Source: a virus
Reading direction: 5' to 3' (one strand)
Length of the DNA stretch: 23,679 bases
IMG/VR virus record: IMGVR_UViG_3300006108_000064
Location: 1-23,679 of that record
Position numbers and translations under genes: made by a program. Shown one piece after another: positions 19,556-23,679 of this stretch (the stretch's first letter is position 1; each line of letters begins with the position of its first letter). Under the pieces are notes generated by a model. The model was not told the origin of the DNA and ran no database searches. It saw nothing but the letters and a program-made list of their open reading frames with translations.

Positions 19556-19769
19556 ATGGTGGTCCAGATGGTGTAAGGCTCTTGGTGAACGGGTCAGTGA
19601 TTGTGATAAGGAAAGCGATAAGGTTGCTTGGGTTAGAACCTTTCTGATCGTGCAGGCCATCATCACAAATATTTTCATCGTAGCGAATTGTTTACACCAC
19701 TGGTTTGATCCTCCTCCAAAAACCATCATATATAAGACTGTGAGCGATAGCATTGAGGTAAATAACTAA
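19548..19769 (+). CDS. Small single-span membrane protein
   Basis: ATG 19548 (AAGGAAAA upstream) gives 73 aa, preferred to an upstream extension of the same frame that would overlap the previous gene. It has a Trp/Arg-rich start (MNRWWSRWCKALGER), an acidic stretch, one hydrophobic helix about 28-48 (WVRTFLIVQAIITNIFIVAN), and a periplasm-facing or cytosolic tail with DPPPKT. Its TAA overlaps the nrdA ATG (TAATG). It may be a phage membrane or exclusion protein; I do not recognise it. Confidence 0.68.
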   Translation: MNRWWSRWCKALGERVSDCDKESDKVAWVRTFLIVQAIITNIFIVANCLHHWFDPPPKTIIYKTVSDSIEVNN

Positions 19770-21220
19770 TGATTTTTGTAACTAAGCGTGATGGTAATAA
19801 AGAGCCTTTGAATATCGAGAAGATCCATAAGGTTGTAGGTTGGGCATGTGAAGGTCTAAGTGGAGTATCAATCTCTGATCTTGAGCATAATAGCCATTTG
19901 CAGTTTTATACAGGAATTACTACTTCTGCCATCCAGGAAACCCTGATCAAGGCTGCTGCCGATCTCATCTCCGAGGATGCTCCTAACTATCAGTATGTTG
20001 CTGGTAGACTGATCAACTATAACCTCCGTAAGGAAGTGTATGGTCAGTACGAGCCGATCTCTTTATGTCAACATTATGCTAACGTAGTTGAAGATGGGTA
20101 TTATGACGAATCATTGGCTGATGTATATGACGATGCAGACTGGTTCGAACTAGCCGAATATATTGACCATGACCGAGACAATCTTCTCACATATGCTGCC
20201 ATGGAACAATTTCGTGGTAAGTATCTAATCAAGAATCGCGTAACCGGTCAGTTCTATGAAACTCCTCAGATGGCTTTCATGCTGATTGCCATGACTCTCT
20301 TTCAGAACTACACCAAAGATCGACTCAAGTGGGTAAAGGAACTATACGATGCAATCAGCACTTTTGATATTAGTCTTCCTACTCCAATCATGGCTGGCGT
20401 CCGGACCCCTGACCGCCAGTTCTCTTCGTGTGTTCTTATTGAATCTGATGACTCTAGAAAATCAATCAGTGCAACAGCAGCGGCTATCGTAGAATATGTT
20501 TCAAACAAAGCTGGGATTGGTATTGGTGGCGGTCGTATTAGGGCTGCTGGATCTCCTATACGCAATGGTGCTACTGTCAGCACTGGTGTTGTTCCTTTTT
20601 GGAAGCATTTTCAATCTGCTGTTAAATCTTGTAGCCAAGGTGGTGTCCGAGGTGGAGCAGCGACACTCCATTACCCCCTTTGGCATTACGAAGTGGAGGA
20701 TCTTCTTGTCCTAAAGAACAACAAGGGAACTGAAGATAATCGTATTCGTCATCTAGATTATTCTGTTCAGTTCAATAAGGTAATGTATGAACGGTTGCTC
20801 TCTGGTGGAAATATTACTTTGTTTTCTCCAAGTGATGTGCCTGATCTTTATGATTCGTTTTTCGTTGACGTAGATAAGTTCAGAACTCTCTATGAGAAGT
20901 ATGAAAAGGATAAGAAGATTCGCAAGAAGGTTGTTCCTGCGATTGAATTGTTTTCTGCATTCATGCAAGAACGAAAGGATACTGGTCGTATTTATTTTAT
21001 GAATGTTGATCATGCAAACGATCATGGTTCCTTTATCAAGGATTTGGCTCCTATTCGTATGTCAAATTTGTGCCAGGAAATATGTTTGCCCACCACACCA
21101 CTGAAGGATATTCATGATGGTGGTCCAGTAGTCAAAACAATGAAAATGACTAAAGAAGAGTATCAAAAATATCTTGAATGGAAGAAAAATAATCTAAACA
21201 CCCCAATTAAAAGCAGATAA
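19769..21220 (+). CDS. nrdA: Ribonucleotide reductase large subunit, N-terminal part (fractured NrdA-a)
   Basis: 483 aa of class Ia ribonucleotide reductase alpha. The N-terminus is an ATP-cone-like segment (FVTKRDGNKEPLNIEKIHKV). Cys221 in FSSCVLIESDDS is the redox-active Cys equivalent to E. coli C225. NLCQE (433-437) holds the active-site Asn, thiyl-radical Cys435 and Glu, equivalent to N437/C439/E441. The chain then continues DGGPVVKTMKMTKEEYQKYL and stops at 21220, before the second redox Cys (C462), which is encoded downstream at 21498. The break is made by the GIY-YIG gene at 21251. The two chains must associate for activity, as reported for the mobE-split NrdA of Aeromonas phage Aeh1. 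Confidence 0.93.
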   Translation: MIFVTKRDGNKEPLNIEKIHKVVGWACEGLSGVSISDLEHNSHLQFYTGITTSAIQETLIKAAADLISEDAPNYQYVAGRLINYNLRKEVYGQYEPISLCQHYANVVEDGYYDESLADVYDDADWFELAEYIDHDRDNLLTYAAMEQFRGKYLIKNRVTGQFYETPQMAFMLIAMTLFQNYTKDRLKWVKELYDAISTFDISLPTPIMAGVRTPDRQFSSCVLIESDDSRKSISATAAAIVEYVSNKAGIGIGGGRIRAAGSPIRNGATVSTGVVPFWKHFQSAVKSCSQGGVRGGAATLHYPLWHYEVEDLLVLKNNKGTEDNRIRHLDYSVQFNKVMYERLLSGGNITLFSPSDVPDLYDSFFVDVDKFRTLYEKYEKDKKIRKKVVPAIELFSAFMQERKDTGRIYFMNVDHANDHGSFIKDLAPIRMSNLCQEICLPTTPLKDIHDGGPVVKTMKMTKEEYQKYLEWKKNNLNTPIKSR

Positions 21221-21222
21221 AG

Positions 21223-21250
21223 TATAAATGGTAGTGAGGAGAACACTACT
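21223..21250 (+). promoter_or_regulatory. Late-promoter box and ribosome-site-sequestering hairpin of the homing endonuclease
   Basis: TATAAATG at 21223-21230 resembles the T4 late box. It is followed by GTAGTG 21231-21236, loop AGGAGAA 21237-21243, CACTAC 21244-21249, and ATG 21251. The AGGAG ribosome site is in the loop of a perfect 6-bp hairpin. A late transcript starting about six bases after the box would lose the 5' arm and free the ribosome site. Confidence 0.65.
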
Positions 21251-21514
21251 ATGATTACACTATATGTTAAAACGCATAAAGTTACTGGACTTAAATATCT
21301 TGGTAAGACAGAACAAAATCCGTTCGAATACCTGGGTTCAGGGAAGAGATGTAAAAGAGAACTGAACAAATATGGTAAAGATATTGAGACAGAGATTCTA
21401 TTTCAATCTGATGATATATTAGAAATAAAAGAACAAGGGTTATACTATTCCAAATTATGGGATCCGGGGAATCTAGCAAAGCATTTAAGGAAACAAAATG
21501 GATTTCAAATATGA
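21251..21514 (+). CDS. GIY-YIG homing endonuclease inserted in nrdA
   Basis: An 87-aa GIY-YIG nuclease domain. The first strand TLYVKTHKVTGLKYLGKT carries the GIY...YIG equivalents (LYV and KYLG). An Arg/Lys-rich helix (SGKRCKRELNKYG) holds the catalytic Arg, and KEQGLYYSKLWDP holds the metal-binding Glu. No C-terminal DNA-binding region is present, so it is shorter than I-TevI or the phage Seg enzymes and may depend on other contacts or be truncated. Its end overlaps the start of the second nrdA piece by 17 bases. The A+T-rich composition contrasts with nrdA. There is no room for a group I intron, so it is a free-standing gene inserted in nrdA. Confidence 0.86.
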   Translation: MITLYVKTHKVTGLKYLGKTEQNPFEYLGSGKRCKRELNKYGKDIETEILFQSDDILEIKEQGLYYSKLWDPGNLAKHLRKQNGFQI

Positions 21515-22514
21515 AATTGTCGATAGTATCGACACTAAAGATAAGGAACATGTTTATGTTACAGAAGTTTTCGAATCTGATTGTAAATCAGAAATATCGT
21601 TGTGTACGTTAAGTGCAATCAACTGGGGCAAGATCAAGAAACCAAGCGACTTTGAGAAGCCTTGCACACTTGCGGTCAGAGCTTTGGATGCGCTTCTTGA
21701 TTATCAGTCTTACCCTGTCAACGCCGCTCGTATATCTACTCTTAATCGTCGCCCTCTGGGTGTCGGTATTATCAACTTGGCTTATTGGCTTGCTCGGAAT
21801 GGCAGTAACTATTCCGATCCGAATCTTGAATTGGTTCACGAATATGCTGAGGCATGGTCTTATTACCTTATCAAGGCTTCTGTAGATTTAGCAAAGGAAT
21901 CTGGTGTCGGTCCTTGTCCTAAACATACCGAAACTAGATATGGCGAGGGCGTAATGCCTATTGATACATATAAGAGAGAAGTTGACGAACTTATACCAAA
22001 TCCAGATTATAAAATGGACTGGGATACTCTTCGTGGGGACGCTTTTCTTTATGGTATTCGCAATTCAACTCTGATGGCTCTAATGCCTGCTGAAACGTCC
22101 GCTCAGATTTCCAACTCGACGAATGGCATTGAACCACCAAGAGCATTGGTGTCAGTAAAACAATCAAAGGACGGAACTCTGAAGCAGGTCGTTCCCGGTA
22201 TTGCTAAGTATAAGAACAAGTATGAACTTCTATGGGATCAAAAGTCACCAGAGGGTTATCTAAAGATTTGTGCTGTGCTTCAGAAGTTTATTGATCAGGC
22301 AATTTCGGTTAATTTCTCTTATAATCCAGCCCACTATCCAGATGGTAAAGTTCCTATGTCAGAACTTATTGGACATATGCTATCACACTATCGCTGGGGT
22401 GGAAAAACTGGATATTATTTGAATACCGCTGATGGTGCCGGAGAAATCAATCTTGGTGTACAATTAAGTTCTGATGGAATTGACGAAAATGATTGCGATT
22501 CGTGTAAAATATGA
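21498..22514 (+). CDS. nrdA: Ribonucleotide reductase large subunit, C-terminal part (fractured NrdA-b)
   Basis: 338 aa starting at ATG 21498, with AAGGAAA upstream inside the endonuclease gene. It carries the second redox Cys in ISLCTLSA (Cys36, equivalent to E. coli C462), RRPLGVGIINLAYWLA, the substrate-loop motif ALMPAETSAQISNSTNGIEP, the radical-relay tyrosine pair in GKTGYYLNT, and the C-terminal CxxC-K (Cys333, Cys336) that re-reduces the active site. All catalytic features missing from the first piece are here, so the split enzyme should be complete. The first 30 residues (YEIVDSIDTKDKEHVYVTEV) belong to the loop where the insertion sits. Its stop overlaps the next ATG. Confidence 0.93.
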   Translation: MDFKYEIVDSIDTKDKEHVYVTEVFESDCKSEISLCTLSAINWGKIKKPSDFEKPCTLAVRALDALLDYQSYPVNAARISTLNRRPLGVGIINLAYWLARNGSNYSDPNLELVHEYAEAWSYYLIKASVDLAKESGVGPCPKHTETRYGEGVMPIDTYKREVDELIPNPDYKMDWDTLRGDAFLYGIRNSTLMALMPAETSAQISNSTNGIEPPRALVSVKQSKDGTLKQVVPGIAKYKNKYELLWDQKSPEGYLKICAVLQKFIDQAISVNFSYNPAHYPDGKVPMSELIGHMLSHYRWGGKTGYYLNTADGAGEINLGVQLSSDGIDENDCDSCKI

Positions 22515-23679
22515 GATTTGATTTTTCTCCTTTATATCCTCTAAATGAAACCAATATTGTTGATTTTGATACTGTAATGATGGTTAAAATTCTGCGGTCA
22601 ATCATTAGTAATGAAAAGGGTAGAATTAGAAAGTCTGCTAATGATATAACACAATGGAATGAATATAATTGGCTATTCGATTATATTCATTCCAAGATCA
22701 ATTTTGGAGATTATTCACTGAATGAACGATTACATTTATTTGAAATTGGAGCGACAGAGCACCCAAACTGTAAATATTGTGAAAAACCCTTATCATATTC
22801 TATATCAAAAAGACGTTATCCAGAAACCTGTTCTGGATGTATGTGGATAGACAAAAAGGATGAATTAAATCGTAAAAGAGAAACTACTATGGTTGAACGA
22901 TATGGATATGTGAAAAACTTTAGTAGTGAACAATTTAAAGATGAGGTTAAATCCACTTGTCTAGAAATATATGGAGTGGATAATGCATTTAAATCGCCAA
23001 TTATAAGAGATAGAGCCAAATATACTTGTTTAGAAAGATATGGAGTTGATCATTATAATAAAACTGAAGAGTATAATGACAAAACTAAGGCAACCTGTTT
23101 AGAAAGATATGGAGTAGAACATTTTACTCAATCAGAATCTTTCAAGAAAAATAATATAAACGCAAACTATAAAGGTTGGAGAGAGCAAGCAGAATATATT
23201 GTAGATAATTATTCTTCTGGTATGCCATCGTATAAACTGTGTGATGAGATTGGGTATAGTCAATCTCATTTTAATAAAATTTTACATAATTTAGAATTAG
23301 ACCCAAATCTTCCGCAAAACAAAAGATGGAAACCAACCTTTCGTTCTAAGGGAGAAATTGAGATTGGGGATTTTGTGAAATCATTGGGGTTTGATTTTGA
23401 AAATAATACCAGAAACGTTATAGATGGAGAATTGGATATTTATATTCCATCTATGAATCTTGCTATAGAATATAATGGAACATATTGGCATTGTGATAGT
23501 TTGCGGCCAAAAGAACATGTAATAGACAAACTTAATAAATGCGAGAATTTGGGTATACATCTTGTCACTATACAAGAAAACGTATATTTAGAAAATAAAG
23601 ATAAAGTTCTAAATAAAATTCGTTCGATGTTGTGCAAGGAAAATGATGTAATTTATGCTAAATATTTAGAATTACATCA
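22511..23679 (+). CDS. EDxHD (Vsr-like) homing endonuclease, partial at 3' end
   Basis: ATG 22511 overlaps the nrdA-b stop (ATGA), and the frame stays open to the window edge (389 codons). Domains in order: a helical N-terminus; a zinc-finger-like CKYC...CSGC (Cys87, 90, 107, 110); four repeats of about 23-25 residues with the pattern T(C/M)xExYGVxxxxxSxxxxxK (about 124-220), as in phage homing-endonuclease DNA-binding arrays; a helix-turn-helix-like segment (SYKLCDEIGYSQSHFNKILH); and a nuclease domain with Glu282, Asp309 (GELDIYIP), Glu320 in IEYNG, and His327/Asp329 (YWHCD), the EDxHD signature. That family was first described in fractured phage genes and includes I-Bth0305I. Very A+T-rich. 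The C-terminus is outside the window. Confidence 0.88.
   Translation, partial: MRFDFSPLYPLNETNIVDFDTVMMVKILRSIISNEKGRIRKSANDITQWNEYNWLFDYIHSKINFGDYSLNERLHLFEIGATEHPNCKYCEKPLSYSISKRRYPETCSGCMWIDKKDELNRKRETTMVERYGYVKNFSSEQFKDEVKSTCLEIYGVDNAFKSPIIRDRAKYTCLERYGVDHYNKTEEYNDKTKATCLERYGVEHFTQSESFKKNNINANYKGWREQAEYIVDNYSSGMPSYKLCDEIGYSQSHFNKILHNLELDPNLPQNKRWKPTFRSKGEIEIGDFVKSLGFDFENNTRNVIDGELDIYIPSMNLAIEYNGTYWHCDSLRPKEHVIDKLNKCENLGIHLVTIQENVYLENKDKVLNKIRSMLCKENDVIYAKYLELH

Follow-up and report, generated by a model that had tools for sequence, protein, structure and literature searches.

What controls a homing endonuclease gene that lies between two pieces of nrdA is the question raised by a 23,679-nt stretch of viral DNA (the window), where a short open reading frame begins at a hairpin enclosing its ribosome-binding site (RBS). 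In phage T4, the RBS of I-TevI, I-TevII, I-TevIII and segB is masked by a hairpin on read-through RNA and a late promoter starts inside the hairpin (PMC2988022); the same principle, in which a late start frees the RBS, operates on the ordinary late genes e, soc and 49 (PMC3014915). We consider late control in the style of I-TevI and of Aeromonas phage Aeh1 mobE to be the best explanation of the leader across the family to which the window copy belongs, with a probability of roughly 0.7.

Table 1. Features of the split nrdA locus, in window coordinates.
Feature	Coordinates	Strand	Remarks
nrdA 5' piece, 483 aa (ATP-cone, all-alpha, first part of barrel)	19769..21220	+	
Mobile tract (approximate limits, ~480 nt)	21124..21605	+	98-100% identity to L011
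NrdA-N C-terminal tail VVKTMKMTKEEYQKYLEWKKNNLNTPIKSR	21128..21217	+	missing from uninterrupted NrdA
Late-promoter-like box TATAAATG	21223..21230	+	reads TATAAATA in all intact relatives
RBS hairpin 5' arm ATGGTAGTG	21228..21236	+	folding
Predicted late transcript +1	21236..21236	+	inferred from T4 box geometry -13..-6
Hairpin loop AGGAGAA, contains Shine-Dalgarno (SD) AGGAG	21237..21243	+	sequence, folding
RBS hairpin 3' arm CACTACTAT, takes in A and T of ATG start	21244..21252	+	folding
GIY-YIG homing endonuclease remnant, 87 aa	21251..21514	+	intact relatives 201-203 aa
ATGGGAT, junction of 348-nt in-frame deletion	21457..21463	+	7-mer at both ends of missing piece in intact relatives
NrdA-C N-terminal head MDFKYEIVDSIDTKDKEHVYVTEVFESDCKS	21498..21590	+	missing from uninterrupted NrdA
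nrdA 3' piece, 338 aa (rest of barrel, natural C-terminus)	21498..22514	+	

The hairpin has a perfect 6-bp core spanning 21231-21249 (GTAGTG at 21231-21236 with CACTAC at 21244-21249). With its flanks the stem reaches 9 bp (ATGGTAGTG/CACTACTAT, one G.U pair) at a predicted -9.8 kcal/mol, enclosing the 3' end of the box and the A and U of the endonuclease AUG at 21251. T4 late boxes occupy positions -13 to -6 (PMC2988020), which places the +1 of the leader on the final base of the 5' arm, and an RNA beginning there has no predicted fold. This agrees with the initial annotation, which expected a late RNA to begin at the end of that arm. Its description of a ribosome site in the loop of a perfect hairpin fits the SD and the 6-bp core but not the extended stem with its G.U pair, and the late-box-like sequence that it noticed is in place but departs from the late consensus at the final base, A to G. 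The same change turns an A-U stem pair into the G.U pair and leaves the hairpin intact.

When box, SD and ATG were held fixed and the remainder of the leader was shuffled, a 9-bp stem with the SD in its loop arose in 143 of 200,000 shuffles of the window leader and in 29 of 200,000 for the version in the relative L009. The box is not unusual by itself, the window holding 35 matches to TATAAATA with at most one mismatch against 27 expected. As an intrinsic terminator on the + strand the hairpin was rejected, having no T run and not being flagged by the terminator scan, which flags it on the - strand only, with a weak tail. Rfam identified neither a group I intron nor any other known RNA at the leader. 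The A-to-G change also creates an out-of-frame ATG, which opens an 8-codon frame (21228-21254) whose TGA overlaps the endonuclease start.

Near-identical contigs (L009-L015) encode full-length endonucleases at the same nrdA site behind a perfect TATAAATA and the same hairpin, the leader being cut off in L014; the stem of L009-L013 is that of the window. In a diverged group (L016-L019 and L117-L130), ATAGTTGTG/CACAACTAT takes the place of ATAGTAGTG/CACTACTAT around a 10-nt loop, and the stem differs by one compensatory pair, A-U to U-A. All nine stem pairs hold in every sequence compared (100% of cells), with one pair changed on both sides, and slid-partner controls break the pairing. The covariation consists of this one compensatory pair, probably a single evolutionary event, and the backing that it gives to conservation of the hairpin is modest because its score was matched or exceeded in 26 of 500 shuffles. 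In a further relative, L037, the leader (6-nt loop) and the C-terminal portion of the endonuclease are retained beside a different N-terminal catalytic domain, which we assigned by eye as GIY-YIG-like.

The loop among relatives is therefore not of one size, at 6, 7 or 10 nt. This variation bears on a reading in which the inverted repeat would act as a DNA operator, bound by the endonuclease or another protein that represses transcription from the late promoter beneath it. In its favour, I-TevI represses the late promoter of its own gene (PMC2988022), the presumed transcript start is covered by the repeat, and the covariation would also fit a palindromic DNA site. However, variable arm spacing is unexpected for a dimer site, which disfavours a fixed-spacing operator, and in every case the SD lies inside the repeat and the start codon at its end; we regard an operator as very improbable.

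The window is a 23.7-kb fragment, and the evidence for a late transcription system comes from G001, a 157-kb relative carrying the same element, which encodes gp55 (phrog_234, E 1.9e-59). There, 17 of the 30 TATAAATA sites lie upstream of a gene start at a distance of at most 55 nt, where 0.7 would be expected. By inspection, the late-type genes of the window have [CG]ATAAATA shortly 5' of their starts. In the nrdA kin, 32 of 103 TATAAATA sites precede an SD and an ATG, and the final A is invariant among these promoter-placed boxes. None of 129 TATAAAT[CGT] sites in the same kin is placed in this way, a contrast from which we take the G of the window box to be a probable lesion of the promoter; none of 35 TATAAATG sites there is so placed. 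In vitro, T4 boxes that depart from the consensus at one position are used (PMC2988020), so TATAAATG might retain some promoter activity.

Among 126 distinct late-box leaders outside those picked by our hairpin pattern scans, six have SD-embracing stems of at least 10 bp (0.35 expected; maximum of 2 in 40 shuffled sets). Judged by inspection of translations, three of the six stand before GIY-YIG genes and one before a tail-like gene. The pattern scans, which are biased by design, find the same leader build on neck-like and other genes of relatives. Since SD-embracing stems recur on other late-box leaders, the late-box RBS hairpin is a device of late genes in general, endonuclease genes among them.

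Several leaders elsewhere in the relatives deserve separate mention. In L226, L264, L276 and L283, a neck-like protein gene (MATPNSK...) is preceded by late-box RBS hairpins, with paired changes between their stems (GTAGTA/TACTAC and GTAATG/CATTAC). At another locus, L134 and L136 carry a GIY-YIG gene with TATAAATAGTCTCTAAAGGAGACT, where the SD sits in the 3' arm directly after the late box. Seg-like endonuclease genes (L148, L151, L152, L155, L156, L160, L161 and L162) share a different late-box leader, in which a GTAGTTCGCGG...CAACTACTCTAA hairpin is followed by a second small stem around AAGGAG and then by CAGCATG; this is possibly an undescribed regulatory leader.

The proximity of the upstream reading frame is a point against late control at nrdA. 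The stop codon of the nrdA 5' piece (21218-21220) is separated from the stem that follows by 7 nt in the window and by about 9 nt in the diverged group, and the footprint of a terminating ribosome is expected to reach the first few stem pairs. With the stop so near, a ribosome terminating there could open part of the stem. Taken further, the hairpin would be no repressor: translation would be coupled to nrdA, with ribosomes melting the stem and re-initiating at 21251, and the late box would merely add late RNA. Coupling alone does not account for a 9-bp stem that persists across a compensatory change and three loop sizes, or for hairpins of the same build on other late-box leaders, and we think it unlikely.

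The late-control model, which we prefer, assumes that nrdA is transcribed early or middle in these phages. A free-standing GIY-YIG homing endonuclease gene would have invaded the nrdA of a T4-type phage and broken it into two parts, each coding for a piece of the protein. In intact members, long read-through nrdA RNAs would fold the hairpin and mask the SD and start codon, and little endonuclease would be made from them. A gp55-type late RNA polymerase would initiate at TATAAATA; the resulting transcript, which begins on the final base of the 5' arm and is unable to fold, would be translated. Homing would move the leader, the endonuclease and the new NrdA tails jointly, and the window element would be decaying, having lost the final A of the box, the invariant Trp and the middle of the endonuclease. 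We infer the repression and the late start from an anatomy, conservation and covariation that can be read directly in the leaders.

The lesions of the window endonuclease are equally direct to read. Trp34, invariant in 17 relatives, is Cys (W34C), and V73, A79, N80, E84 and G86 are deleted. PHROG places the 87-aa protein among homing endonucleases (E 5.6e-5); Pfam did not recognise the endonuclease and gave no GIY-YIG match, tblastn with the 87-aa protein against the phage collection gave no match, and a sequence search of solved structures returned only a low-complexity match. The GIY-YIG fold is predicted in an intact relative, whose structural model has a confident N-terminal domain with the I-TevI catalytic domain as its best PDB match (Foldseek probability 1.00, TM 0.68 of target, E 0.011, a weak value). 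The window gene is a degenerate, internally deleted remnant that has presumably lost activity, and for that reason there is probably little left for its leader to control.

For the window copy taken alone, it is likely that the leader is a relic without a regulatory role, its promoter and endonuclease both broken, which is compatible with late control in the family. The off-consensus box, W34C, the loss of the A79/N80 region and the 348-nt deletion all point to a relic, but the hairpin and SD are intact and the 87-aa frame is open. The copy also comes from a single metagenomic contig, in which an assembly error is possible, and no other contig was found to share the deletion. In spite of the lesions in box and endonuclease, the window retains the hairpin and both pieces of NrdA.

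The boundaries of the mobile tract are visible in comparison with two relatives. The nrdA sequence flanking the tract is only roughly 60-80% identical to L011, and outside the tract the L013 backbone is nearly identical to the window over much of nrdA and downstream. Because the tract matches L011 while the flanks match the L013 backbone, this is the signature of element transfer, suggesting that the element moved by homing together with its leader and both NrdA tails. Empty sites are found in kin with an uninterrupted nrdA reading NLCCEITLPTTPLKDIHDESGEISLCTLAAINWG. Judged from substitution patterns, the tails are under protein-level selection, with dN well below dS (for example, dS 1.5 and dN 0.07 for the tail between the window and L037, rough values from short sequences).

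The closest precedent is Aeh1 mobE, for which PMC2988022, citing Gibb and Edgell (2007, 2009), describes an RBS-sequestering hairpin with a late promoter. I-TevI logic in a free-standing nrdA endonuclease is already known from that case. The I-TevI-style control that the initial annotation proposed is well supported for the family, with its perfect box, conserved covarying hairpin and gp55 in a relative, but is not supported as stated for the window with its off-consensus box; its free-standing GIY-YIG gene within nrdA is likewise found whole in the intact relatives but as a remnant here.

mobE splits nrdA at the same place as the window element, between the LPT.P and EISLCTL segments, and in Aeh1 and the window family alike both NrdA pieces bear new tails. 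mobE is an HNH enzyme, whereas the window family is GIY-YIG, and the mobE hairpin is longer (the leader folds at -20.9 kcal/mol) with its SD in the arm, not the loop. Sequence kinship between the window and Aeh1 tails is not claimed, the best uncorrected shuffle p being 0.018 among several tests. The Aeh1 NrdA tails were reportedly found by Crona et al. in 2011 to be needed for assembly and activity.

T4 I-TevI is the nearest fold to the modelled intact-relative endonuclease, but the T4 I-Tev genes sit in group I introns and Rfam found none at the window locus. Compared with the I-Tev and segB leaders, that of the window has the SD in the loop and uses the late box itself as the base of the stem. 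The leaders of T4 e, soc and 49 resemble those ahead of tail- and neck-like genes in the relatives; these T4 genes are phage genes and not mobile elements, unlike the window endonuclease.

Three things are new here: a GIY-YIG family occupies the Aeh1 nrdA site, its leader is portable, and that leader outlives the decay of the enzyme. The late-switch hairpin of T4 and Aeh1 would be a portable mobile-element part in uncultured phages, one that withstands a swap of the catalytic domain, passes with the element between phage lineages and persists after promoter and enzyme decay. A second, unrelated endonuclease that splits NrdA at the Aeh1 site with tails makes it testable whether essential genes that have been broken are generally rescued by such tails. 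More speculatively, and with the odds somewhat against it, endonucleases of unrelated kinds (HNH in Aeh1 and at least two GIY-YIG catalytic domains here) may have landed repeatedly at the nrdA break and independently gained an RBS hairpin anchored on the late box and mobile with the element, along with NrdA tails that keep the two parts of the split enzyme joined and outlast a dead endonuclease.

Other elements occur in the window and its kin. An intein C-piece lies in nrdA just 5' of the CEITLPT segment in L033, L047, L049-L053, L055 and L059, no more than about 20 codons from the endonuclease site, so that different mobile elements strike the same gene region. A second free-standing endonuclease gene (22511-23679) has an ATGA overlap with the nrdA 3' end; it is Vsr-like with DUF7487, has a homing endonuclease as its best PHROG match and is cut off by the window edge. 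A tRNA gene is present at 2319-2399 (Rfam RF00005). At 3-718, a gp41-like helicase contains what looks like a natural split intein with a weak Pfam intein match and no endonuclease gene between its pieces, the N-intein-like piece stopping at 224 and the C-intein-like piece (MLDEIVSIECIG...FYANDILTHNS) starting at 314.
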